Shown here: piece after piece, positions 11,891-24,189 of the stretch
Numbering within the stretch: the stretch's first letter is position 1
Layout: each line of letters starts with the position of its first letter
DNA from: Mesorhizobium qingshengii
GTDB taxonomy: Bacteria > Pseudomonadota > Alphaproteobacteria > Rhizobiales > Rhizobiaceae
Length of the DNA stretch: 64,000 nt
Reading direction: 5' to 3'
Assembly (NCBI RefSeq): GCF_027563465.1
Contig: NZ_JAPFQA010000010.1
Location: 124,001-188,000, forward strand
Translations under genes and position numbers: made by a program
Notes under the pieces: generated by a model
Told to the model about the DNA's origin: nothing
Databases searched by the model: none
Seen by the model: the letters and a program-made list of their open reading frames with translations, nothing else

Positions 11891-14581
11891 TCACTCTGCC
11901 GCCTGAACTCGATTTGCCTGGATGATCGTCCGGATTTCGGCCCGGCAGGAGCCGCAATTGGTGCCGGCCTTCAGCGTGCCCCCGATGGCTTCGACGCTCG
12001 TGCAGCCCCCCGCCACGGCCGCCGCGATCTGGTTGGCGCCGACGCTGAAGCAGGAACACACGATCGCGCCGGCGTCCGGCCGATCGGCGCCGGCGCGGCC
12101 GGCGACGATGCGGAAGCGCTGGCGCTGGCCGGCATGGGTGACGTCGAGCTGTTCCGCCGCCCAGCCGCGCGACACGGCGACCGGGCCGGGCGCGACGAAC
12201 AAGGCGCCGGACAATTGATCGCCGTCGAAAGCGGCGATGCGATGCTGGCCGGCGTCGCGGTCATGATAGGCGAGCGTGTCGCCCCCCGGCGGCGCGCCGA
12301 ACAAGGACGCGGCGAAGCCGGCCCAGTCGATATCGTCATCGGCAAAGGCTAGCTCGACCCGCCAGCCGCCCCTGCAACGGGCGGCGGCCCAATAGGGGGC
12401 GGCAATCGACGCTGGCTTCTGGCGCGTCACGGCAAAGCCAAAGGCTTTCGCGGCAAACGTCTCGACGCGGGCCGCGACATGTTTCAGCGCCGGCTGGCCG
12501 GAAACCGGATCGGTCAGCGGCGCGGTGAGCGTGTCGAGCCGGCCCGTTGCGGCAAACTGGTCGGTCCAGTGCATCGGGGCAAACAGGCTGCCCTGGCGCT
12601 GGCGAGGCGTGACCAGCGCGCGCACCAGCACCTCGCCGCGCAGGCTGGATACACGCACGATGTCGGCGTCGCCGATACCTTGGCGCGCTGCATCCGCCGG
12701 ATGGATCTCGACGAACGGCTCGGCGATGTGCTGGGACAGCCGCGGACTTTTGCCGGTCCGCGTCATGGTGTGCCAGTGGTCGCGGACACGGCCGGTGTTG
12801 AGGATCAGCGGGAAGTCCGGGCTGGTGCGGATTTCCGTGGTGGGGCGGATGGCGATGAAACGCGCCTTGCGGTCGGAGGTGTAGAAATTGCCGTCGGCGA
12901 AGAAGCGCGAGCTGGAAGAACCACCGGCCGCCTGAGCGCCCTCCGCTGGTTTCGGCGCTGGCCACTGGAAAGGCACCAGCGCGTCGTAATCTTCTCCATC
13001 GATTCCAGCATAAGCACCGATATCGAAATCCCGCGCGCCATCATTCTCGAAACCCGACAGCGCGGCGTGTTCGGCGAAGACCTCCGCCGGCGTCTCATGC
13101 GCGAACGCCGCGCCAAAACCCATCCGCTTGCCGACTTCGGCAATGATCCGCCAGTCCGGCCGCGCCTCGCCGGGCACGGCCAGGAAAACGCGCTGGCGCG
13201 AGATGCGCCGCTCCGAATTGGTGACGGTGCCGTCCTTCTCGCCCCAGGCGGCGGCGGGCAGCCTGACATGGGCGTGGCGAACGGTGTCGGTCCTGGCCAG
13301 CACGTCCGAGACCACGACGAACGGGCAGGCCTTGATCGCCGCTTCGACGGCATCGGCGTCCGGCATCGAATCGACCGGGTTGGTGGCCATGATCCACAGC
13401 GCCTTGATGCGCCCGTCGGCCACCGCCTGAAACATCTCGACCGCTTTCAGGCCGGGCTTCCGCGCAACGGCTGGCGCATTCCAGAAGCGCTGCACGCGGT
13501 CGCGGTGCTCTGGATTTTCGATCTCCATATGGGCGGCCAGCATGTTGGCCATGCCGCCGACCTCTCGGCCGCCCATGGCGTTGGGCTGGCCGGTCACCGA
13601 GAACGGCCCTGTCCCAGGCCTGCCGATGCGGCCGGTGGCGAGATGGCAGTTGATGATGGCGTTGACCTTGTCGGTGCCCGACGACGACTGGTTCACGCCC
13701 TGGCTGTAGACCGTCACCGTCTTGGGGGTTGCCGCAAACAGGCTGTAGAAGCGGCCAAGTTCGTCTTCGCTCAGCCCCGTGGCGGCGGCAACACCGGCAA
13801 GGTCGAGCGCCGAGGCGGCGAAGAGCGCCTGCCCGAAGCCGGTCGTGTGCGCGGTGATATAGGCGCGGTTGAGCGCATTGTGCTGGCCGAGCCAGGCGAG
13901 CAGGCCGGTGAACAGAGCGACGTCGCCATCCGGCGCGATCGCCAGATGCATGTCGGCGATGTCAGCCGTCATGGTGCGGCGCGGATCGACCAGCACGATC
14001 TTTATCTCCGGCCGCTTCTCCCGGGCAGCCGCGATGCGCTGGTAGAGCACCGGATGGCACCAGGCGAGGTTGGAGCCGACCAGCACGATCAGATCGGCGA
14101 GTTCGAGATCCTCGTAGGTGCCCGGCACCGTGTCGGAGCCGAAGGCGCGGCGGTGGCCGGCCACCGACGAGGCCATGCACAGGCGCGAATTGGTGTCGAT
14201 GTTGGCCGAGCCGACAAACCCCTTCATCAGCTTGTTGGCGACATAGTAATCCTCGGTCAGCAGCTGACCCGACACGTAGAAGGCCACAGCGTCCGGGCCG
14301 TGTTCGGCGATGGTTTGCGAGAAGGTCGAGGCGACGAGGTCGAGCGCCTCGTTCCAGCCTGCGCGGCGACCGTGGATCTCCGGATGAAGCAGCCTGCCGT
14401 CGAGGTCGATGGTCTCGGCCAGCGCCGAGCCCTTGGAGCAGAGCCGGCCGAAATTGGCCGGGTGGTCGGGGTCGCCGCGGACGGACACTTGCCCGTCCGC
14501 AGCGACCTTCGCCAGCACGCCGCAGCCCACCCCGCAATAGGGGCAGGTGGTCCTCACCTCGCGTGCTTCTTCGATCTCCAT
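11891..14581 (-). CDS. nasA: Assimilatory nitrate reductase catalytic subunit with BFD-like domain
   Basis: An 896-residue molybdopterin oxidoreductase that reduces nitrate to nitrite in the cytoplasm. The N-terminal 4Fe-4S motif CPYCGVGCG begins at residue 13, with the fourth ligand in RLCSKGSA. Molybdopterin-binding segments follow (NTNSRLCMASSVAGHRRAFG, NPVDSMPD, NTGRVRDHWHTMTRTGKSP). The last 60 residues are a BFD-like [2Fe-2S] domain (IVCSCFSVG ... TNCGSCRAEI), which should receive electrons from a partner reductase. The ATG at 14581 lies 2 nt after the nirD stop, so translation is coupled. Last gene of the narK-nirB-nirD-nasA operon. No signal peptide, as expected for an assimilatory enzyme. 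Confidence 0.95.
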   Translation of the reverse strand: MEIEEAREVRTTCPYCGVGCGVLAKVAADGQVSVRGDPDHPANFGRLCSKGSALAETIDLDGRLLHPEIHGRRAGWNEALDLVASTFSQTIAEHGPDAVAFYVSGQLLTEDYYVANKLMKGFVGSANIDTNSRLCMASSVAGHRRAFGSDTVPGTYEDLELADLIVLVGSNLAWCHPVLYQRIAAAREKRPEIKIVLVDPRRTMTADIADMHLAIAPDGDVALFTGLLAWLGQHNALNRAYITAHTTGFGQALFAASALDLAGVAAATGLSEDELGRFYSLFAATPKTVTVYSQGVNQSSSGTDKVNAIINCHLATGRIGRPGTGPFSVTGQPNAMGGREVGGMANMLAAHMEIENPEHRDRVQRFWNAPAVARKPGLKAVEMFQAVADGRIKALWIMATNPVDSMPDADAVEAAIKACPFVVVSDVLARTDTVRHAHVRLPAAAWGEKDGTVTNSERRISRQRVFLAVPGEARPDWRIIAEVGKRMGFGAAFAHETPAEVFAEHAALSGFENDGARDFDIGAYAGIDGEDYDALVPFQWPAPKPAEGAQAAGGSSSSRFFADGNFYTSDRKARFIAIRPTTEIRTSPDFPLILNTGRVRDHWHTMTRTGKSPRLSQHIAEPFVEIHPADAARQGIGDADIVRVSSLRGEVLVRALVTPRQRQGSLFAPMHWTDQFAATGRLDTLTAPLTDPVSGQPALKHVAARVETFAAKAFGFAVTRQKPASIAAPYWAAARCRGGWRVELAFADDDIDWAGFAASLFGAPPGGDTLAYHDRDAGQHRIAAFDGDQLSGALFVAPGPVAVSRGWAAEQLDVTHAGQRQRFRIVAGRAGADRPDAGAIVCSCFSVGANQIAAAVAGGCTSVEAIGGTLKAGTNCGSCRAEIRTIIQANRVQAAE

Positions 14582-14583
14582 GT

Positions 14584-14922
14584 TCAGGCCGCGCGGCAGG
14601 CCAGCGCTTCCAGCGCGATGAACAGACGCTCGCCTTCGATCCTGACAGGAATGGTGCGCACCGCGCCTTCGTCGGCGCCGAGCGCCCTGCCCGTTTCCAG
14701 CGAGATCACCCAATTGTGCAAGGGACAGGTCACCGCCGCGCCATGCACGATGCCCTGGCTGAGCGGCCCTCCCTTGTGCGGGCAATGGTCATCGATGGCA
14801 TAGACCTGGTCGTCCTGGGTGCGGAAGACCGCGACCTTGCCTTCCGGCGTGGCGACGCAGCGCGCGCCGCGGCGCGGAATGTCGGAGAGGAAACCGATGG
14901 CGATCCAGTTCATATGCTCCAT
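14584..14922 (-). CDS. nirD: Assimilatory nitrite reductase small subunit (Rieske type)
   Basis: A 112-residue Rieske-fold protein. Both cluster motifs are intact: CPH in DDHCPHKGGPL and CPLH in TCPLHNWV, so it should bind a [2Fe-2S] centre. It pairs with NirB in NAD(P)H-dependent reduction of nitrite to ammonium. It lies between nirB (57 bp upstream) and nasA (2 nt downstream) on the same strand. Two possible starts three residues apart (MEHM) make no difference to function. Confidence 0.94.
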   Translation of the reverse strand: MEHMNWIAIGFLSDIPRRGARCVATPEGKVAVFRTQDDQVYAIDDHCPHKGGPLSQGIVHGAAVTCPLHNWVISLETGRALGADEGAVRTIPVRIEGERLFIALEALACRAA

Positions 14923-14979: not shown

Positions 14980-17430
14980 CTACTCCGCCGCCTGCGCAAA
15001 CCCGACCGAGGCCATCGGCCGGAATTCGTGCTTGTCCTTGCCGGAAACGCGTTCCGACCACGGGTCGACCTGAGCGAATTTCTGGCTGAAGACGAAGCGG
15101 TCGTAATAGGCCTTGCGTTTCTCTCCATCGTCCATGATCTGGCGCTTGATCTCCGGGATGCCGATGCGCTTGGCCCATTTGTAGATGCGCTCGAGATAGC
15201 GGCCCTGCTCGCGGTACATCTGCGTCAGCGCCACGATATGCTCCAGCGCCTCGTCTTCCGTCTTCACAAGGCCGAGCACTTCGGTGCCCTTGATGTCGAG
15301 GCCGGCGGCGCCGGCGAAGTGGATCTCGTAGCCAGAGTCGACGCAGATGACGCCGACATCCTTGCAGGTCGCCTCGGCGCAGTTCCTTGGACAGCCCGAT
15401 ACCGCCATCTTGACCTTGGCCGGGGTCCACGAGCCCCACATGAACTTCTCGATGCGGATGCCCAGTCCCGTCGAATCCTGCGTGCCGAAGCGGCACCAGT
15501 CGGAGCCGACGCAGGTCTTCACCGTGCGCAGGCCCTTGGCATAGGCATGGCCGGAGACGAAGCCGGCCTGGCCGAGATCGGCCCACACGGCCGGCAGGTC
15601 TTCCTTGCGGATGCCCAGCATGTCGATGCGCTGGCCGCCGGTGACCTTGACCATCGGGATCTCGAACTTGTCGACGACGTCGGCGATGGCGCGCAGTTCG
15701 GCGGCGTTGGTCACGCCACCCCACATGCGCGGCACCACCGAATACGTGCCGTCCTTCTGGATGTTGGCGTGGACGCGTTCGTTGATGAAGCGCGACTGGT
15801 AGTCGTCGGCGTAGTCGTCCGGCCAGTCGCAGACGAGATAGTAGTTGAGCGCCGGCCGGCATTTGGCGCAGCCGCAGGAGGTCTTCCATTCCAGTTCCTG
15901 CATGACCGCCGGAATGGTCTTCAGCCGCTTGGCCACGATCAGCCGGCGCACCTCGTCATGGCCGAGTGTGGTGCAGCCGCACATCGGCTGCACCGCCGCC
16001 GGGTTGTATTTGTCGCCGATGGTCAGCACCATCAGCTTCTCGACCAGTCCGGTGCAGGAACCGCAGGAGGCCGAGGCCTTGGTGTGGGCGCGCACGTCGT
16101 CGAGCGAGGTCAGGCCCTTGGCCGTGACCGCACCGGTGATCTTTCCCTTGCAAACGCCGTTGCAGCCGCAGATTTCCGCATCATCCGGCAAGGCTGCAAC
16201 GGCCGCCATAGGGTCCAGCGGGGCACCTCCCTGGTAGGACTGGCCGAAGATGAGCGTGTCGCGCATTTCGGAAATGTCGGTCTGCTTCTTCTTGAGGTCG
16301 TTGAACCAGGCGCCGTCGGCCGTCTCGCCATAGAGTACCGTGCCGATGATGCGGTCGTCCTTCAGCACCAGCCGCTTGTAGACGCCGGCGGCGGCATCGC
16401 GCAGCACGATCTCCTGGCGGTCCTCGCCCTCGGCGAAATCGCCGAGCGAGAACAGGTCGATGCCGGTGACCTTGAGCTTGGTCGGCGTGTCCAGATGGAC
16501 GAAGGCCGCCGCCTCGTTGCCGGCAAGCTGGCTGGCCGCGACACGCGCCATCTCGTAGAGCGGCGCGACGAGACCATAGACCTGGCCGTTGACCTCGGCG
16601 CATTCGCCCAGCGCGTAGATGTCGGGATCGTTGCTGCGCATGCCGGCGTCGACGACGATGCCGCGATTGACGGCGATGCCCGCTTGCTTGGCCAGCGCCG
16701 AATTCGGCCGGATGCCGACCGCCATGACCACCAGCGTCGCCGGGATGATGGTGCCGTCGGCAAGTTCCACCTGCCCGACCTTGCCGTTGCCGGTGATCGC
16801 CTGCGTGTTGGCCTTGGTGATCACCTTGATGCCGCGCTGCTCGACCGCGCGCTGCAGGAGATAGCCGGCGGCCGGATCGAGCTGGCGCTCCATCAGCGTC
16901 GGCATGACATGCAGTACGGTGACGTCCATGCCCTGCGCATTCAGCCCCGCCGCCGCCTCCAGCCCGAGCAGGCCGCCGCCGATGACCACGGCCTTGGCCC
17001 GTGACTGGGCGGCGAGCATCATCGCCTGCACGTCGTCGAGATCGCGATAGGTCAGCACGCCCGGCAGATCATGGCCGGGCACCGGAATGATGAACGGCAC
17101 CGAGCCGGTGGCGATGACCAGCTTGTCGTAGGGCTCGGTGACGCCGTGATCGGAGGTGACGGTCTTGGCCTCCCGGTCGATGGCGATGATCTTGTGGCCC
17201 TTGTAGAGGGTGATGCCGTGCTTGATGTACCAGCCGTCGCCATGGATGATGATTTCCTCGTAGGCCTTTTCGCCCGACAGCACTGGCGACAGCATGATGC
17301 GGTCGTAATTGACGCGCGGTTCGGCGTTGAAGATGGTGACGGTGTAGCGCCCCGGCGCCTGCTCCAGCAGGTGCTCCAGCATGCGCCCTGGCGCCATGCC
17401 GTTGCCGATGATGACGAGTTTCTCGGTCAT
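14980..17430 (-). CDS. nirB: Assimilatory nitrite reductase [NAD(P)H] large subunit
   Basis: An 816-residue multidomain flavoprotein reducing nitrite to ammonium. Order: N-terminal FAD domain (LVIIGNGMAPGRMLE), NAD(P)H domain (VIGGGLLGLEAAAGL), a BFD-like [2Fe-2S] region (EICGCNGVCKGKI ... SCGSCTG, plus CGCTTLGH and SCGCAKCRP), then the nitrite/sulfite reductase halves with the siroheme/4Fe-4S ligands TCVGSDWCRFG and SGCPRNCAEA. I place the start at ATG 17430 (TEKLVIIGNG); a GTG at 17454 just after the narK stop would add eight residues. Cytoplasmic; second structural gene of the nitrate operon. Confidence 0.95.
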   Translation of the reverse strand: MTEKLVIIGNGMAPGRMLEHLLEQAPGRYTVTIFNAEPRVNYDRIMLSPVLSGEKAYEEIIIHGDGWYIKHGITLYKGHKIIAIDREAKTVTSDHGVTEPYDKLVIATGSVPFIIPVPGHDLPGVLTYRDLDDVQAMMLAAQSRAKAVVIGGGLLGLEAAAGLNAQGMDVTVLHVMPTLMERQLDPAAGYLLQRAVEQRGIKVITKANTQAITGNGKVGQVELADGTIIPATLVVMAVGIRPNSALAKQAGIAVNRGIVVDAGMRSNDPDIYALGECAEVNGQVYGLVAPLYEMARVAASQLAGNEAAAFVHLDTPTKLKVTGIDLFSLGDFAEGEDRQEIVLRDAAAGVYKRLVLKDDRIIGTVLYGETADGAWFNDLKKKQTDISEMRDTLIFGQSYQGGAPLDPMAAVAALPDDAEICGCNGVCKGKITGAVTAKGLTSLDDVRAHTKASASCGSCTGLVEKLMVLTIGDKYNPAAVQPMCGCTTLGHDEVRRLIVAKRLKTIPAVMQELEWKTSCGCAKCRPALNYYLVCDWPDDYADDYQSRFINERVHANIQKDGTYSVVPRMWGGVTNAAELRAIADVVDKFEIPMVKVTGGQRIDMLGIRKEDLPAVWADLGQAGFVSGHAYAKGLRTVKTCVGSDWCRFGTQDSTGLGIRIEKFMWGSWTPAKVKMAVSGCPRNCAEATCKDVGVICVDSGYEIHFAGAAGLDIKGTEVLGLVKTEDEALEHIVALTQMYREQGRYLERIYKWAKRIGIPEIKRQIMDDGEKRKAYYDRFVFSQKFAQVDPWSERVSGKDKHEFRPMASVGFAQAAE

Positions 17431-17450: not shown

Positions 17451-18752
17451 TCACTCTGCGGCGTAGGAAAGGGCTGGAGCTTCGGCGGCTGCAGCGCGCT
17501 CCATGCGCCTGATGGAGAAATGCATCCAGGCAAGGCAGGCGACGACGATCACGAAGAGCAGCATGAAGCAGCTCGACCAGACACCGGTGAGGTCGTTAAG
17601 CGCGCCGAAGGCGATCGGAAGGATGAAGCCGCCGAGCCCGCCGATCATGCCCACGACGCCTCCGACCGCGCCGACACTCTGCGGGTAGTAGGCGGGGATG
17701 TGCTTGTAGACCGCGGCCTTGCCGAGGCTCATGAAGAAGCCGAGCACGCAGGCAACGGCGATGAAGGCGAGCGGGCCGATCTCGAAATGGAAGGCGATCG
17801 GCCCGCTGATGCCGCGCACGACGTAGTCTGCCGAGGGGAGGGACAGAACGAGAGTCGCGACGGCACTGACGGCGAAGGTCGAATAGAGCACGGTACGGGC
17901 GCCGATGCGGTCGGAAAGCACGCCGCCATAGGCGCGGAAGACGCTTGCGGGAATTGAATAGGCCGCGCCGATCATGCCGGCGGTCGCAAGCCCGAAGCCG
18001 TAGACGCCGATCAGGTAGCGCGGCAACCACAGCGACAGCGCGACGAACGCGCCGAACGCGAAGAAATAGTAGAAGGCGAAGCGCCAGACCTGCGGGTTCT
18101 TGAGCGGCGTGAATTCCTGCCAGAAGCTTCTCGCGGGTGCTGCCTTGCCGGCACGGCGCTCGCGAATGACCGGATCGTCGCCGGTGGTGAACCAGAAGAT
18201 GGCAGCCATGACGACGAGTGCGGCCGCCCAGATCAGCGCCACCGACTGCCAGCCCCAGGAGAGAAGCACGAACGGCGCCAGGAACTTGGTGACCGCGGCC
18301 CCGACATTGCCGGCACCGAAGATGCCGAGGGCCGTGCCCTGCCGGTCGGCGGGGAAAAAGCGCGAGACATAGGACACGCCGACGGCGAAGGAACCGCCGG
18401 CGAGCCCCACGCCGAGCGCGGCGATCAGCATCTGCCCGTAGGTGTGCGCAAAAGCGAGCAGGAAGGTCGCGACCGCCGCCGCAAGCATGGTCGCGGTGTA
18501 GACCAGCCGCCCGCCATAGCGGTCGGTCCAGACGCCGAGCACCATGCGCACGAGAGAGCCGGTGAGGATCGGCGTGCCGAGGAGCAGGCCGAACTCCGTC
18601 TCGTTCAACCCAAGCTCCTGTTTTATGCGTACGCCAATGATCGAAAAGATCGTCCACACCGCGAAGCAGACGGTGAAGGCGATGGTGGACATCACGAGCG
18701 CCCGCCGGGGAGCATTGTCCTGGCTGGGCGCGGCTGCGAGATTTGCGGTCAT
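17451..18752 (-). CDS. narK: Nitrate/nitrite MFS transporter
   Basis: A 433-residue major facilitator of the NarK/NasA nitrate porter family with 12 predicted membrane segments. Diagnostic stretches: the motif-A loop GVWTDRYGGRLVY, the nitrate signatures around GLAGGSFAVGVSYVSRFFP and GNVGAAVTKFLAP, and a second signature near GAVGGVVGMIGGLGGFILPI, with the substrate-binding Arg of helices 2 and 8 preserved as far as can be judged. It brings nitrate in for nasA. Positioned 55 bp after a 65-aa ORF and ahead of nirB. Confidence 0.94.
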   Translation of the reverse strand: MTANLAAAPSQDNAPRRALVMSTIAFTVCFAVWTIFSIIGVRIKQELGLNETEFGLLLGTPILTGSLVRMVLGVWTDRYGGRLVYTATMLAAAVATFLLAFAHTYGQMLIAALGVGLAGGSFAVGVSYVSRFFPADRQGTALGIFGAGNVGAAVTKFLAPFVLLSWGWQSVALIWAAALVVMAAIFWFTTGDDPVIRERRAGKAAPARSFWQEFTPLKNPQVWRFAFYYFFAFGAFVALSLWLPRYLIGVYGFGLATAGMIGAAYSIPASVFRAYGGVLSDRIGARTVLYSTFAVSAVATLVLSLPSADYVVRGISGPIAFHFEIGPLAFIAVACVLGFFMSLGKAAVYKHIPAYYPQSVGAVGGVVGMIGGLGGFILPIAFGALNDLTGVWSSCFMLLFVIVVACLAWMHFSIRRMERAAAAEAPALSYAAE

Positions 18753-18807: not shown

Positions 18808-19005
18808 TCAGCGGCGCTGCGTCGGGGAGCTGGATGAAACCGAGCTTCGCGCCGTCACTTCAGGACCCTTGCCGTCAGTCTTGGCGCCGGCGGGGTGGAG
18901 CAGGAGCGCGGCGGTGAACAGCGCCGCCGTCAGCGCGCTGCTCGCCAGAAAATCGCGGTGTGTGAAATCCTTGAGGGTGGTGGCAGTTCCGATCTGTATT
19001 GTCAT
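18808..19005 (-). CDS. Small membrane ORF between the nitrate leader and narK, 65 aa
   Basis: MTIQIGTATTLKDF..., with GGAG 6 nt upstream of ATG 19005. Residues about 21-42 are hydrophobic (ASSALTAALFTAALLLHPAGA), giving one membrane segment or an uncleaved signal; the tail is Ser/Thr-rich and polar. It is the first frame after the ANTAR-type terminator (60 bp downstream) and is cotranscribed with narK. No family recognised. It may be a small partner of the transporter, or a leader ORF that tunes narK translation. Confidence 0.55.
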   Translation of the reverse strand: MTIQIGTATTLKDFTHRDFLASSALTAALFTAALLLHPAGAKTDGKGPEVTARSSVSSSSPTQRR

Positions 19006-19064: not shown

Positions 19065-19131
19065 AAAAAAGCCGCCGGCCAGGTCTCGCGCGTCCGTCCA
19101 TCCGGGATCGCGTGTTGACCTGAGCGGCAGC
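19065..19131 (-). terminator. Intrinsic terminator in the nitrate operon leader
   Basis: In the leader RNA (minus strand) the 5' arm GCTGCCGCTCAGGTC (19131-19117) pairs with GACCTGGCCGGCGGC (19085-19071), 14 of 15 positions counting G-U pairs, followed at once by TTTTTTGTTTT (19070-19060). The 5' arm shares bases with the second ANTAR hairpin (P2), so the two structures exclude each other. Confidence 0.85.
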
Positions 19132-19161
19132 TTTGCCTGAGGGCGCCCGCCATTGGACGCC
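19117..19161 (-). promoter_or_regulatory. ANTAR-type two-hairpin antitermination leader (NasT target)
   Basis: Two hairpins with hexanucleotide loops carrying A at position 1 and G at position 4, the signature bound by ANTAR proteins. P1: GGCGTCC - AATGGC - GGGCGCC (19161-19142), 7 bp with one G-U. P2: GGC - AAAGCT - GCC (19137-19126), with a flanking CCT/AGG pair across a small internal loop. P2 uses bases of the terminator's 5' arm. The known mechanism for NasT/NasR is that binding stabilises P1-P2 and prevents termination; the nasT gene lies 2 kb upstream. Confidence 0.88.
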
Positions 19162-19196
19162 TCTTCGATTGCCCTGGAAGGGCTCGTTTATTTCAA

Positions 19197-19212
19197 AGCA
19201 GGAACTGTGCCA
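19197..19212 (-). promoter_or_regulatory. Sigma54 (RpoN) promoter of the nitrate operon
   Basis: TGGCACAGTTCCTGCT on the minus strand, with GG (19211-19210) and GC (19199-19198) separated by exactly 10 nt, the strict -24/-12 rule. It matches the consensus TGGCAC-N5-TTGCW with one loss in the TT. Transcription would begin near 19186, about 25 nt before hairpin P1. Confidence 0.82.
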
Positions 19213-19320: not shown

Positions 19321-19345
19321 CGCACAATTTTTGTGCAATGCACAA
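19321..19345. promoter_or_regulatory. NtrC-like enhancer sites
   Basis: Read on the minus strand, 19337-19321 is TGCAC-AAAAATT-GTGCG, which matches the NtrC consensus TGCAC-N7-GTGCA in all but the last base. An overlapping dyad TTGTGC-AAT-GCACAA occupies 19331-19345. The main site is centred about 117 bp upstream of the -24 element, a normal enhancer distance, and lies just after the nasS stop codon. Together with the sigma54 promoter it implies control by nitrogen limitation. Confidence 0.75.
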
Positions 19346-19362: not shown

Positions 19363-20607
19363 TCAGGCTTCCGCGCGGGCCGATTTCTGGGCGGCGATGT
19401 AGGCGTCGATCTCGTCCGGATCGAAGATCTGGCCGTCGAAGAAACCATCCGGGCCGAGCACCAGCCCCGCCCCTGTCGCGCCGACCGCTGTGGCCACGCG
19501 CAGCGCGCCCTCGACCTTCGAATTGGCGCCGGGAAGTGCGACGCCAAGCGGCTTCAGCGCCGAGCGGTAGAGGTCGGGCCGGTAGCAGTCACGGGCAATG
19601 GCGAGGTTTTCCGGCGTGTGCGCCACATGCCCCCAGCGCACCATCTGCGTGTAGAACCACAGCGCATGGCTCTTCCACGGAAAGTTGGCCGCCTTGTCGA
19701 AGGGCAGGAAGAAGTCGTCGATATCCAGCTCCGCCCCGCCGCCCAATCGGAGATGGCCGGTCAGGATCGGCATCTGCACGGCCGGCGGCAGACCGAGGAA
19801 GCCGGGCTGCGCCATCACATTAGCCAGTTCGCCGTGGTTGGCCGGATCCTGGCACCAGCGTGCCGAGTGATGCAGCGCGCGCAAGAGCGCCGCCAGCGCC
19901 TCGGGGCTCTGCTCGGCCCAGGCCTTGCGCACGCCGATCACCTTCTCCGGGCTGTTGCGCCATATCTGCGCCTTGACGGTGACGATGTGGCCGGTGCCGG
20001 CGGCAACCGCAGCGCTGTTCCAGGGCTCGCCGACGCAGTAGCCGTCGATCCGCCCCGTGGCCAGCGCGTCGGCCATGAAGGGCGGCGGCACGATGACGAT
20101 CTCGATCTCGAGCGTCGGATCGATGCCGCAGGCCGCAAGCCAGTAGCGCAGTTCGTAATTGTGCCCGGAATGCGGGTGCACGACGGCGAAGCGCAACGGA
20201 TCGTGGCCGGCGGCAGCGCGTTCGCGAATGAGCGCGCCAAGGGCTGCACCAGCGCGCGCCGGATCGAGATCAGGCGCGGCGCCATGCGCCGTCATGCCGG
20301 CCCAGACGGCGTTGGAGATGGTGACGCAATTGCCGCCGAGCCCGAGCGAGAACGGCACGATGGTCTCGGAAGCGAGCGGCGTCAGCCCGAGATTGCAGGC
20401 GAGCGGCATCGGCCCGAGCATATGCGCGAGATGGAAGTGGCCGATGGCGATGCGGTCGCGGATGTTGGCCCACGACGTCTCGCGGTGCAGCGTCAGATCG
20501 ATGCCTTCGCGCGCGGCGAAGCCCAGCTCGCCGGCCGCGACCAGCACGGCGCTGTCGAAAAGCGGCATGAAGCCGGCGGTGATCTGATGCTCGGCGCCCA
20601 TGCTCAT
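19363..20607 (-). CDS. nasS: Nitrate/nitrite sensor NasS (cytoplasmic NrtA-like protein)
   Basis: A 414-residue relative of the nitrate-binding protein NrtA without any signal peptide, which is the mark of NasS. Family phrases are clear: AGFMPLFDSAVLVAAGELGFA, LHRETSWANIRDRIAIG, DGYCVGEPWNS, FLPFDKAANFPWKSHALWFYTQMVRWG. In known systems NasS holds NasT in an inactive complex and releases it when nitrate or nitrite binds. Its ATG overlaps the nasT stop by 4 bp. It ends immediately before the NtrC-like site of the nas operon. Confidence 0.93.
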   Translation of the reverse strand: MSMGAEHQITAGFMPLFDSAVLVAAGELGFAAREGIDLTLHRETSWANIRDRIAIGHFHLAHMLGPMPLACNLGLTPLASETIVPFSLGLGGNCVTISNAVWAGMTAHGAAPDLDPARAGAALGALIRERAAAGHDPLRFAVVHPHSGHNYELRYWLAACGIDPTLEIEIVIVPPPFMADALATGRIDGYCVGEPWNSAAVAAGTGHIVTVKAQIWRNSPEKVIGVRKAWAEQSPEALAALLRALHHSARWCQDPANHGELANVMAQPGFLGLPPAVQMPILTGHLRLGGGAELDIDDFFLPFDKAANFPWKSHALWFYTQMVRWGHVAHTPENLAIARDCYRPDLYRSALKPLGVALPGANSKVEGALRVATAVGATGAGLVLGPDGFFDGQIFDPDEIDAYIAAQKSARAEA

Positions 20608-21206
20608 TCGTCCTCCGCCGGTCCCAGCAGCCCTGCGGCGGTCACCAGGCTCTGGGCGATGTCGCCGATCTTGCGGTTCTGGTTCATCGCCGTCTTGCGC
20701 AGCAGCGTGTAGGCCGCCTCTTCCGTCAGGCCGCGCGACTTCATCAGGATGCCCTTGGCGCGATCGATCACCTTGCGGCTCTCGAGCTCGCTGCGCGCCT
20801 CTTCCAGTTCGCGCGCCATGCGCGAGAAGGCGTTGAAGCGGCTGACCGCCATGTCGAGGATCGGCTTGACGCGCTCTTGCCTGAGACCATCGACGACATA
20901 GGCTGACACGCCGGCATCGACCGCCGCCTCGATCGAGGCCTGATCGGAGCGGTCGACGAACATGGCGATCGGCCGCTTCACCGCGCGCGACAGCTGGAAC
21001 ATGTTCTCCAGCATGTCGCGGTTCGGATTTTCGAGATCGATGACGATGACGTCGGGCTCGATCTCGGCGATGCGCCGCGCGATGCCGGTCACGTCGTGGA
21101 TGACGGTGACCCGTTCATGGCCGGCCTCGCGCAGTCCCGCCTCGATGATCGAGGCGCGGATGCGGTTTTCGTCGATGACCAGGACGGCGAGTGAGCTGCG
21201 GACCAT
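20604..21206 (-). CDS. nasT: ANTAR-domain antiterminator NasT
   Basis: About 200 residues: an N-terminal receiver-like domain (LAVLVIDENRIRASIIEAGL, DVIVIDLENPNRD) that starts DEN where a phosphorylated receiver usually has paired acids, then a coiled linker (about 120-140) and a C-terminal ANTAR domain with the conserved ARSELESRKVIDRAKGILMKS helix and the AYTLLRKTAM helix. It binds two-hairpin leader RNA and lets polymerase pass the terminator. I chose ATG 21206 (VRSSLAVLVID); an upstream ATG at 21248 is possible. Its target is very probably the leader at 19117-19161. Operon partner of nasS. Confidence 0.93.
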   Translation of the reverse strand: MVRSSLAVLVIDENRIRASIIEAGLREAGHERVTVIHDVTGIARRIAEIEPDVIVIDLENPNRDMLENMFQLSRAVKRPIAMFVDRSDQASIEAAVDAGVSAYVVDGLRQERVKPILDMAVSRFNAFSRMARELEEARSELESRKVIDRAKGILMKSRGLTEEAAYTLLRKTAMNQNRKIGDIAQSLVTAAGLLGPAEDE

Positions 21207-21232
21207 GCCTGCATTGTGCCCATGCGAGGAAA

Positions 21233-21243
21233 TTGTGCAATGC
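21233..21243 (+). promoter_or_regulatory. TTGTGCAATGC element upstream of nasT
   Basis: The 11-mer TTGTGCAATGC recurs exactly at 19331-19341, inside the NtrC-like region of the nas operon. Here it lies 27-37 bp upstream of the preferred nasT start. A related TTGTGC half-site is at about 21214-21219. It may bring nasTS under the same nitrogen control. Confidence 0.4.
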
Positions 21244-21314
21244 GGCATGGCCTGCTGATCGCAATGGATGGTGATTTGGATGACGACATGACGCCGGGGC
21301 CCGGCGCCGATGCA

Positions 21315-22106
21315 TCACCCCGCCAGCGCCATTTCGGGGCGTTTTGACCCCTCGCGGATGGCCTTGTGCACGCCGCGCTGCAGATCCATGAAAGCCGGGC
21401 TTTCCATCACCTCTTCCCGGCGCGGCCGCTCGATGTCGACGTTGAAGGTCTGCGTGATGCGTCCCGGGCCGATCCCCATGACGACGATCCGGTCCGACAG
21501 GTAGACCGCCTCCTCGACGTCGTGCGTGACGAACAGCACGGTGAGCCGGTGTTCTTCCCAGATCTGGGTCAGCAGTTCCTGCATCTGGTGCCGGGTCAAG
21601 GCATCGAGCGCGCCGAAGGGCTCGTCCATCAGCAGCATCTTGGGCCGATAGGAAAGCGCACGCGCGATGGCGACGCGCTGCTTCATGCCGCCCGAGAGTT
21701 CGGACGGGTAGCGGTCGGCGCTATGCGACAGCTTGACCAGGTCGAGATGCTCGAGCGCGATCCTGCGGCAGGTCGCGCGATCGTAACCCGCGGCCTTGAG
21801 GGCAAACTCGATGTTCTGCCGCGCCGTCAGCCAGGGAAGCAGCGTGTAGGACTGGAAGACGACGCCACGGTCGAGGCCCGGCTGCAGGATCGGTGCGCCG
21901 TCGATGCTGAGATCGCCGGCGTCGAAGTCCTGCAGTCCGGCGACAATCGACAGCAGCGTGCTCTTGCCGCAGCCCGACGTGCCGACGAGCGAGACGAACT
22001 CATTGTCGGCAAGATCGAGGTTGATGTCCCGCAGCACCTCCGTGCGCCGCTCGCCCGTGCCGAAGCTCTTGTGGAGACCCGCGATCCGCAATTTGGGGGG
22101 GGTCAT
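21315..22106 (-). CDS. ABC transporter ATPase, nitrate/sulfonate/taurine type
   Basis: A 263-residue ATPase of the SsuB/TauB/NrtD group. Walker A GTSGCGKST (about 42-50), GVVFQSYTLLPW Q-loop, signature LSGGMKQR (about 137-144), Walker B MLLMDEP and switch His in LFVTHDVEEA. The start MTPPKLRIAG at 22106 has GAGG 9 nt upstream and follows the permease stop; an ATG at 22133 inside the permease end is the alternative. It works with the next two genes upstream. The locus context (HisD, kinase, SDR) argues for a catabolic substrate other than nitrate, although nasTS lies directly beyond it. Confidence 0.88.
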   Translation of the reverse strand: MTPPKLRIAGLHKSFGTGERRTEVLRDINLDLADNEFVSLVGTSGCGKSTLLSIVAGLQDFDAGDLSIDGAPILQPGLDRGVVFQSYTLLPWLTARQNIEFALKAAGYDRATCRRIALEHLDLVKLSHSADRYPSELSGGMKQRVAIARALSYRPKMLLMDEPFGALDALTRHQMQELLTQIWEEHRLTVLFVTHDVEEAVYLSDRIVVMGIGPGRITQTFNVDIERPRREEVMESPAFMDLQRGVHKAIREGSKRPEMALAG

Positions 22107-22116
22107 CGACTGTGCC

Positions 22117-22992
22117 TCATTGCGAGTGGCCATCCTGCCGGAACAGCACCTTTTCCAGCGCCTTCATCACCTGGTCGGTGATGAGGCCGAGCACGCCCAG
22201 AAGCAGGATGTAGCCGATGATGGTGTTTGTCTGGAAATAGCGCTGCGACACGGTGATGCGATAGCCGAGCCCGGATGTCGCCGCGACGAGTTCGGCCAGC
22301 ACCAGCCAGGTCCACGCCCAGCCCAGGCTAATGCGCAGCGTGTCCCAGATGCCCGGCAAGGCGCTGGGCACGACGATGCGCGTCAGGATCTTGCGGTCCG
22401 ACAGGCCGAGCGTGCGCCCAAGGCCGATGAAATCGGTGGGAACACGTTTCACGTTGTCCATGATCATCAGCACCTGCTGGAAGAAGGTGCCGATGAAGAT
22501 GATCAGGAACTTCTGCGTATCGCCGGTGCCTGCCCACAGGATGGAGAGCGGCACGAAGGCGACGACCGGCATGTAGCGGATGAAATCCACCAGCGGCTCG
22601 ATACCTGCTTCCCAGGAACGGAAACTGCCGATCAGCACGCCGATCGGGATCGACAGTGCCGAGGCGATGAGGAAGCCGATCGAAATCCGGTACATCGAGG
22701 CCTTGAGGTCCAGCCACAACGTACCGTCGGTAGCGAGCTTGGCGATCTGGGTCGCGACGCTGCCCGGTGACGGCAGGAAGATGGGTTTCACCCATTCCAG
22801 TCCGGTCGCCGCCCACCAGGCCAGGCCAAGCCCGACAAAGACAGCCACGGCGATCATCAGGAAACGCGACCTGGCGATCGGCACGCCGATCCCGGAGGAC
22901 CGGCGGCGTCTCGCCTGTTTCGTGACCGGCCCCGGCGCGGAAAGAGCCGGGACCGTTTTCGCGGGGGGCTCCCCGGACATCCGTGTCACCAC
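22117..22992 (-). CDS. ABC transporter permease, SsuC/TauC type
   Basis: A 291-residue inner-membrane permease with about six membrane helices and a basic N-terminal extension of about 40 residues. Family phrases include WVKPIFLPSPGSVATQIAKL, PLVDFIRYMPVVAFVPLSILWAGTGDTQKF and the ATPase-contact loop TLGLSDRKILTRIVVPSALPGIWDTLRI. Candidate starts are GTG 22992, GTG 22989 and ATG 22980; I list the first. It lies 17 bp after the binding protein gene. Confidence 0.88.
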   Translation of the reverse strand: MVTRMSGEPPAKTVPALSAPGPVTKQARRRRSSGIGVPIARSRFLMIAVAVFVGLGLAWWAATGLEWVKPIFLPSPGSVATQIAKLATDGTLWLDLKASMYRISIGFLIASALSIPIGVLIGSFRSWEAGIEPLVDFIRYMPVVAFVPLSILWAGTGDTQKFLIIFIGTFFQQVLMIMDNVKRVPTDFIGLGRTLGLSDRKILTRIVVPSALPGIWDTLRISLGWAWTWLVLAELVAATSGLGYRITVSQRYFQTNTIIGYILLLGVLGLITDQVMKALEKVLFRQDGHSQ

Positions 22993-23008
22993 CGCGATCC
23001 GGCCTTCG

Positions 23009-24019
23009 TCATTGCGCCGCCTTGACGAAGGACGGGTCGATCATCTGCTCCGGCGTCACATCGGCCTGCAGCAGCTTGGCGTTCTTGGCGGCCGCTTCGA
23101 CATCGGCGAATGTCTTGGTGGTGAAATCGCCGGTGAGCGCCGTCTTGTTTTCGGCGAGAGAGTAGTAGCGCACGCCTTCGAAAGCGGTGTTGAGGTCCTT
23201 GACGTCCGAACCGACGGCCTTGGCGATGATGGCGCGGCCACCGGGCGTGTCGGCATTGTAATCCTTGAGCGCCGCGTCCCAGCTCTTGATCATGGCCAGC
23301 ACCTGGCCGGGCCGCGACTTGATCACCTCGTCGCGCACCACCAGCACGTCGCTGATCAGGCCGGGATCCTCGCCTGCGGTGAACAAAAGCTTGACGTCCT
23401 TGTTCTGCGCCATGGCGACGGTGAGGTACGGTTCGTAGGTGACCGCGACCGGCACGCGGCCGGCGATCAGGGCGCCGCCGGCATCGGCGGCCGGCATCGG
23501 AACCGGCTTCACATCGTCGATCGACATGCCGTTCCTGGCGAGCGCGTATTTGAGCAGGATGTCGCTCGTCGTGCCTTCCTCGAAGGCGACCTCCTTGCCC
23601 TTGAGGTCCTTGATCGAGGTGATGTCCTTGCCGGCGATCATGGCGTCGGCCGTCATGCTGACGTCGAGCAGCAGCACGATCTTCACCGGCAGGCCGGCCG
23701 CGACCATGCCCATCGCCGTGTGGGTGGCGATGTTGGCGGCGTCGAGCTGGCCGCTCGCGAGAGCCGCGTTGATGTCCTTGTCCTCGGCGAAATTGACGAT
23801 CTGAACGTCCGTCAGCCCGTTTGCCTTGAACAGCGCCTTGGCGTCGGCGACATGCCACTGGCCATATCCGAGCCAGGGCTCGATGCCGATCTTGAACGCT
23901 CCGGCTTCGGGCGTGGTGGGAATGGCCGCATCGGCGGCATGGGCTGCCGGGGCGGCGGCGAGCCCGATGGCGGCGGCCATCACGAGCGCGCGAAATTGTC
24001 CTGTTAGGTTACGCATCAT
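23009..24019 (-). CDS. ABC transporter periplasmic binding protein, NMT1/TauA-like
   Basis: About 336 residues. Signal peptide 1 to about 28 (cleavage near AAHA-A), start ATG 24019 with AGGGGA upstream. The mature protein follows the NrtA/SsuA/TauA fold: FKIGIEPWLGYGQWHVA, ASGQLDAANIATHTAMG, LKGKEVAFEEGTTSDILLKYAL, VAVTYEPYLTVAM. Such proteins bind sulfonates, nitrate, taurine or heterocycles. The ligand here is unknown; membership in the GntR regulon (operator at about 24196-24205) links it to the HisD/SDR pathway. A CAGACCG/CGGTCTG inverted repeat (24038-24071) also lies upstream. Confidence 0.88.
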   Translation of the reverse strand: MMRNLTGQFRALVMAAAIGLAAAPAAHAADAAIPTTPEAGAFKIGIEPWLGYGQWHVADAKALFKANGLTDVQIVNFAEDKDINAALASGQLDAANIATHTAMGMVAAGLPVKIVLLLDVSMTADAMIAGKDITSIKDLKGKEVAFEEGTTSDILLKYALARNGMSIDDVKPVPMPAADAGGALIAGRVPVAVTYEPYLTVAMAQNKDVKLLFTAGEDPGLISDVLVVRDEVIKSRPGQVLAMIKSWDAALKDYNADTPGGRAIIAKAVGSDVKDLNTAFEGVRYYSLAENKTALTGDFTTKTFADVEAAAKNAKLLQADVTPEQMIDPSFVKAAQ

Positions 24020-24189
24020 CTTGTTCCCCTTGATGATCAGACCGCTTTTTTTCAACCAAGCATCCGGTCTGGTGAGACTGCGGGTTTCTGCTCTTGCGGC
24101 ACTGTGCCTCGGCGTCATACCTGCCACTTCATGGTGAAGTGCAAGGATATTTCAGCGTCAGCGGGAGCGGATGTCAAGGCTAAAATACA

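Follow-up and report, generated by a model that had tools for sequence, protein, structure and literature searches.

The leader of the narK-nirB-nirD-nasA operon described here is predicted from its sequence to work as a NasS/NasT transcription antiterminator, a reading to which we assign a probability of slightly above nine in ten. In the window, by which we mean the whole stretch of 64,000 nucleotides that was analysed, the minus strand carries in this order nasT, nasS, a gap of 610 nucleotides, narK, nirB, nirD and the gene for a nasA-type nitrate reductase:

20604 to 21248, minus strand: nasT, ANTAR antiterminator with a receiver-like N-terminal domain (Pfam ANTAR, 1.3e-22; Response_reg, 4.9e-8).
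19363 to 20607, minus strand: nasS, nitrate/nitrite sensor of the NMT1_2 family (Pfam NMT1_2, 3.7e-71).
17451 to 18752, minus strand: narK-type nitrate/nitrite transporter (Pfam MFS_1, 2.2e-50).
14980 to 17430, minus strand: nirB, large subunit of the assimilatory nitrite reductase (Pfam NIR_SIR, 1.6e-32, and others).
14584 to 14922, minus strand: nirD (TIGR02378, 1.2e-30, above the cut-off).
11891 to 14584, minus strand: nasA-type assimilatory nitrate reductase (molybdopterin oxidoreductase domains; named from the operon context).

Adjacent genes for a receiver-like plus ANTAR protein (NasT) and for an NMT1_2 family protein (NasS), upstream of nitrate assimilation genes, make up a NasS-NasT system. 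The preliminary description had placed this cognate pair just upstream of the switch, and the common strand as well as the Pfam matches are in line with that claim. The nasS and nasT genes overlap by four bases, and the nasT open frame comprises 214 codons, with an alternative form of 200 amino acids from a start at 21206. The first full gene downstream of the switch is narK, whose product matches the NarK family TIGR00886 at 4.1e-61 and 207.1 bits, under the cut-off of 311.7. None of the listed NCBIfam models is matched above its cut-off by the nasA-type reductase, the formate dehydrogenase alpha (6.1e-141) and NasC (2.8e-132) models both remaining below.

The switch lies between nasS and narK, with P1 200 nucleotides past nasS, and comprises the following elements:

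19139 to 19163, minus strand: P1 hairpin with the hexaloop AATGGC (19154-19149); read directly, folded and compared with shuffled sequences.
19126 to 19137, minus strand: P2 hairpin GGC-AAAGCT-GCC with the loop at 19134-19129 and a three-pair stem; read directly and folded.
19071 to 19131, minus strand: intrinsic terminator hairpin that overlaps P2, stem 19131-19117 with 19085-19071.
19065 to 19070, minus strand: T6 tract of the terminator; read directly.

Direct reading of the bases bears out two earlier statements, namely that A1 and G4 are present in both hexaloops and that P2 shares bases with a terminator stem of 14 base pairs followed by T6. The stem spans 15 positions, comprising 14 pairs and one C.C mismatch. 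The first base of its 5′ arm is G4 of the P2 loop, and the arm also takes up C5, U6 and the 3′ strand of the P2 stem; P2 and the terminator are thus mutually exclusive. An ANTAR-target dual-hexaloop RNA is characterised by a pair of tandem hairpins whose six-base loops both have A1 and G4, and by the overlap of P2 with a terminator ending in a T tract, all of which the window leader shows. Folding yielded −13.5 kcal/mol for P1 (z −2.7; one of 200 shuffled sequences was as good), −36.2 kcal/mol for the terminator (z −4.5; none of 200) and −53.9 kcal/mol for the whole switch (z −3.8; none of 200), and P2 by itself is weak (−5.1 kcal/mol in a 29-nucleotide piece). Where the leader is predicted to begin, a small GCCC/GGGC hairpin can be seen (19171-19183, minus strand), and similar short hairpins are visible in some relatives.

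Covariance models were built from 27 leaders, which were taken first by script and then by eye from 70 loci around nasS matches (L024-L093); the script required A1 of P1, both G4 residues and pairing. Model R1 comprises P1 and the terminator, and model R2 comprises P1 and P2. In these 27 chosen leaders the P1 stem and the terminator stem covary, with 90% of the cells paired and changes on both sides in 15 of 21 pairs for P1 plus terminator and 99% of the cells paired for P1 plus P2, although the covariation in both models is inflated because the rows were chosen for pairing. The outermost P2 pair is G-C in 22 and A-U in five of them. A third model, R3, was made from 33 leaders of 29 loci in records not named Mesorhizobium, a few of which are metagenome genomes of unspecified genus; R1, to which the window was already known, guided the alignment of R3. 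The preliminary description had proposed a search with the ANTAR RNA family. No Rfam family reached its gathering score in the window, but R3 matched the window site with 80 bits and an E-value of 1.6e-18 over the whole 6.5-Mb genome, followed by the next match at 0.089. When this genome was searched for further NasT targets with R1, R2 and R3, the window site alone was strong; the four weaker matches that were inspected (L104, L095, L096 and L105) lie in or across long open frames, and therefore we do not name a second target.

The best Rfam match of the window leader is RF00625 (P11) with 20.7 bits and an E-value of 0.025, far under its gathering cut-off of 70. We take this family, which is filed as a Pseudomonas sRNA, to correspond to the P. 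aeruginosa nirBD attenuator (Romeo 2012). The match raises the question whether the leader RNA, once terminated, has a second role in trans, either titrating NasT or serving as a small RNA, and by reading, the printed P11 consensus contains a sigma-54-like element and two A1/G4 loops. Against this, both copies lie in cis before transporters in the loci with two switches that were examined (see below), and we regard an additional function in trans as unlikely. The narK RNA family RF03032 matched the window leader with 17.7 bits and an E-value of 0.75 at a gathering cut-off of 43.2. Among 61 related genomes, none reached this cut-off and 47 had a match at an E-value of up to 1, and the own genome had none; these weak matches in relatives were discarded as noise, since three of 14 control genomes also matched. 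Farther afield, nine loci of gammaproteobacteria, betaproteobacteria and other distant groups gave no Rfam match, and the best R2 match in 11 such loci had an E-value of 0.19, the models being alphaproteobacterial.

To follow the leader beyond the window, we surveyed the best 80 nasS loci of the matches listed, all from named genomes with NasS, which were picked by nasS and not by the leader; those nearest to the window come mostly from Mesorhizobium. An R1 leader site of at least 29.3 bits was present in 59 of the 80 loci, with 68 sites on the plus strand. As judged by tblastn, the next gene was narK after 27 of these sites, an NrtA- or NasS-like binding protein gene after 34, a nasA-type reductase gene after four, and another gene or none after three; narK or the binding protein thus follows 61 of the 68 sites. 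Second leader copies before a nasA-type reductase gene rather than a transporter gene were seen in Martelella (L181 at 2173, L184 at 1633) and Xanthobacter (L175 at 2148, L179 at 2183).

The loop bases were counted in the best 61 of 77 R2 sites, leaving out the 16 with an E-value above 0.061. P1 has A1 and G4 in all 60 six-base loops, the remaining weak site having a four-base loop, and in P2 all 61 loops have G4 and 58 of the 61 have A1, counts that are favoured because the models that find the sites know these loop bases. The three P2 loops lacking A1 have G1 and C6, and one of them belongs to the weak site with the four-base P1 loop. Loops of this kind occur in L035/L176 (Bauldia litoralis), L036 and L180 (Zavarzinia marina). 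Pairing of loop positions 1 and 6 as a rule was ruled out, as A1-C6 is common.

Within the genus Mesorhizobium, 128 of 146 genomes encode NasT at an E-value of 1e-40 or better, and the same 128 all contain a strong leader match (2.4e-15 or better). Conversely, none of the 18 genus genomes without NasT has a strong leader; 14 yielded no match and four a weak one (0.006 to 0.05). NasT and the leader are neighbours, and their joint presence may hence reflect gain or loss of one DNA block. In one genome (G274:C2:95231-95904) nasT is apparently broken over two frames and the leader match is still strong, and in another (G308) NasT was seen in part. In addition, we analysed 71 loci, that is the window and 70 hand-chosen rather than random ones, in which R3 found 104 leaders. 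In each of the 104, both loops retain A1 and G4.

Upstream of P1, we found two elements that the preliminary description had overlooked, a predicted sigma-54 promoter and a site that is presumably of NtrC type:

19322 to 19336, minus strand: NtrC-type site GCAC-N7-GTGC, exact match to the consensus.
19197 to 19212, minus strand: predicted sigma-54 promoter TGGCACAGTTCCTGCT (-24/-12), one mismatch to TGGCAC-N5-TTGCW.

By consensus match, the candidate promoter has GG and GC at −24/−12, proper spacing and a conserved distance from the RNA. It predicts a transcription start near 19186, about 22 nucleotides ahead of P1, and thereby speaks against a start downstream of P1, which had been named as an observation incompatible with the switch. 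Promoter motifs were counted at the 62 best of the 68 named sites, the six weakest (up to 31.4 bits) being left out. A sigma-54 site precedes 44 of these 62, as compared with 99 of 3100 random stretches, and an NtrC-type motif with at most one mismatch is found at 38 of 62 versus 338 of 3100 (exact motif: 10 of 62 versus 22 of 3100), although these counts are not independent because many leaders are close relatives. In 41 of the 44 the sigma-54 site starts 40-53 nucleotides before the model match. A good sigma-54 match is absent in 18 and an NtrC-type match in 24 of the 62 named sites; among the genus leaders, 103 of 104 are preceded by a sigma-54 site.

The position of the terminator, which begins about 230 nucleotides past the nasS stop, would also fit a terminator that merely ends the nasT-nasS transcript, with hexaloops that are accidental. 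However, the leader with conserved loops recurs in 59 of 80 nasS loci, a promoter-like site separates nasS from P1, and second leader copies occur after nrtC, away from nasS, which renders this explanation extremely improbable.

The antitermination reading suggests the following course of events. Under nitrogen limitation, NtrC and sigma-54 would initiate RNA synthesis near 19186, as judged from the sequence. Without nitrate, NasS would hold NasT, by analogy to Paracoccus, the terminator 19131-19071 would form, and the RNA would end near 19065. With nitrate or nitrite, NasT would be freed, bind the hexaloops of P1 and P2 and fix P2; since the 5′ arm of the terminator is consumed in forming P2, polymerase would continue into narK, nirBD and nasA. 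The predicted promoter layer would make the switch a two-signal gate, the operon responding to low nitrogen and to nitrate. The parts and the read-through logic of the preliminary description hold, with strong comparative support, but the off state, described there as the lack of NasT, is probably NasT held by NasS and freed by nitrate or nitrite, as shown in Paracoccus denitrificans (PMC3795266).

In P. denitrificans, nitrate or nitrite causes the NasS-NasT complex to come apart, and the RNA of the nasA leader is a binding target of NasT (PMC3795266). Mutation of hairpin HI severely reduced the activity of a leader-lacZ fusion on nitrate, and cells with the HI mutation in the chromosome were unable to grow on nitrate, as were cells of a nasT mutant; mutation of HII had little effect on nitrate and gave twofold higher activity on ammonium (PMC5424462). 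As a counterpoint, nitrate and glutamate gave similar amounts of nas transcript (PMC5424462). For Bradyrhizobium diazoefficiens, PMC6759348 tells of an interaction between NasT and the nosR leader that impedes the terminator there, yet under denitrifying conditions narK-bjgb-flp was raised in a nasT mutant despite predicted NasT-type hairpins in the narK leader (PMC6759348). The latter result would fit genuine hairpins together with a NasT that, under the relevant conditions, does not activate narK, other control dominating the leader. In the window, however, narK heads an assimilatory operon beside nasTS, and the terminator overlaps P2; moreover, the leader accompanies NasT through the genus, with intact loops in every leader examined. 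We therefore give such a dominance of other control little chance, and retain antitermination by NasT as the preferred reading.

The NasT protein itself is in line with binding to such an RNA. EutV contacts its RNA through R142, K143, K147, K149, E160, Y164 and M172 (PMC8934654), and the contacts of the EutV structure (6wsh) align with R158, K159, R163, K165, E176, Y180 and M188 of the 214-residue NasT frame. Six of the seven are identical and K147 is replaced by R; a two-residue offset between the chain and the published EutV numbers was assumed because all seven letters agree. NasT lacks the receiver lysine (YVVDGL versus YLVKPL), consistent with a protein that is governed by NasS and not through phosphorylation. 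The genome encodes three ANTAR domains in all, NasT and two more (L002 and L003, on another contig), so that another ANTAR protein might be the one that reads the leader. The latter two adjoin amide-binding-type genes on a different contig, whereas NasT is encoded beside the leader, and a reading of the leader by either of them is very improbable. As read from the frames, the surroundings of L002 and L003 are AmiC/AmiR-like, with a formamidase-like frame after one of the two.

Several relatives have the gene order nasT-nasS-switch-nrtABC-switch-small frame-narK-nirBD-nasA, and at least 35 of the 146 genus genomes contain two strong leader copies about 3.5 kb apart. In the examples L142, L143, L145 and L147, one complete switch precedes nrtABC and one precedes narK. 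The 71 loci comprise 33 with two switches, 19 with nrtABC only and 19 with narK only (a missed gene or leader was added by hand in L143 and L276, leaving their states unaffected), and a complete ANTAR switch stands ahead of each transporter, nrtABC or narK, in all of them. In the nrtABC-only loci nirB follows nrtC, with eight nucleotides between the matched stretches in 18 of 19. The window also contains a sulfonate/nitrate-type ABC transporter set (21315-24127, minus strand) upstream of nasT, unlike the nrtABC genes of the two-switch relatives examined, which sit between nasS and narK.

Between the terminator and narK the window contains a further open frame:

18808 to 19005, minus strand: small open frame of 65 amino acids with a Tat-signal-like N-terminus.

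Frames of 55-79 codons precede narK in 39 loci including the window, most of them with a ribosome-binding-like GGAGACGACG before the start. The small frame matches the N-terminus of NrtA, i.e. the signal end, of two-switch relatives, and by reading, the copy in L126 retains a further NrtA-like piece. Ka/Ks is about 0.2 in the N-terminal and about 0.67 in the C-terminal part (496 pairs, 32 distinct sequences). In the window copy the twin arginine is now HR, and a search without the first codon revealed no Pfam or NCBIfam family match; the copy in L142 scored 16.4 bits against the Tat signal model, just under the cut-off of 16.7. Judged by sequence comparison, the small frame is apparently derived from the 5′-end of nrtA, as a remnant kept under selection.

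The flanks of the window switch resemble different copies. The first upstream block of the gap is identical to switch 1 of L147 at 57 of 60 positions and to switch 2 at 35 of 60; in contrast, the small frame agrees with switch 2 at 54 of 60 and with switch 1 at 33 of 60. The single switch of the window thus looks like a fusion of two copies. Its nearest relative, L272, which is 95% identical over nasTS, has nrtABC in place of narK. On a quick nasT-nasS tree, in which 25 of 68 inner branches have a support under 80, the transporter states of the 71 loci need at least 22 changes (shuffled mean 31.7), and the well-supported branches alone force 9, 8 and 8 changes for the three states, each against the rest. 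We tentatively propose, at somewhat less than even odds, that the Mesorhizobium NasT switch moves together with the transporter under its control and serves as a site of module swapping, and that the window switch is a fusion from which nrtABC and one switch were lost by recombination within the switch.

As a general history of the narK-only loci, recombination within the switch was rejected, as the clear mixed pattern, with an upstream flank clearly nearer to switch 1, was found in only three of 19 (the window, L268 and L275). In at least three others (L287, L289 and L290) the upstream flank is clearly closer to switch 2, and so is the downstream flank in 13 of 19. The rarity of the mixed pattern and the switch-2-like upstream flanks indicate that several histories must be at work.

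Taken together, the element in front of the Mesorhizobium nitrate-uptake genes is very probably a switch by its sequence features, and a new member of a kind described before. It is complete, resolved to the base and widely conserved in a rhizobial genus, with no Rfam model reaching its cut-off in the window. A literature search of titles and abstract beginnings, which covered few subscription journals, yielded no account of a Mesorhizobium leader or of paired NasT switches, and as far as the searches go the paired and fused arrangement is undescribed. The paired switches raise the question of how operons swap transporters and yet keep control. Likewise, the G1 P2 loops of a few other lineages provide a natural test of the role of A1, which the EutV-RNA structure leaves open (PMC8934654).

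The closest known system is NasS-NasT with the nasA leader of P. denitrificans, which shares the proteins, the site between nasS and the first structural gene, and the leader hairpins. There, the binding of NasT to the leader and the need for HI are experimental (PMC3795266, PMC5424462). The window operon differs in that it starts with narK, preceded by a small open frame, and in a promoter that looks sigma-54 dependent. The NasR-nasF leader of Klebsiella oxytoca has in common the ANTAR antitermination, the nitrate signal and the importance of A1 and G4 in the loops, as told in PMC3369931, but NasR senses nitrate itself by its NIT domain, whereas here sensing would fall to the separate NasS. 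With EutV and the eut leaders of Enterococcus faecalis the switch shares the two A1/G4 hexaloops, the overlap of P2 with the terminator and the RNA-contact residues (one K being R). The modes of control differ: EutV becomes active when phosphorylated via EutW, whereas the receiver lysine is missing from NasT, which in Paracoccus is sequestered by NasS. The consensuses of the narK RNA (RF03032) and of P11 (RF00625) both contain, by reading, two A1/G4 hexaloops like those of the window leader, which scores far below both gathering thresholds.
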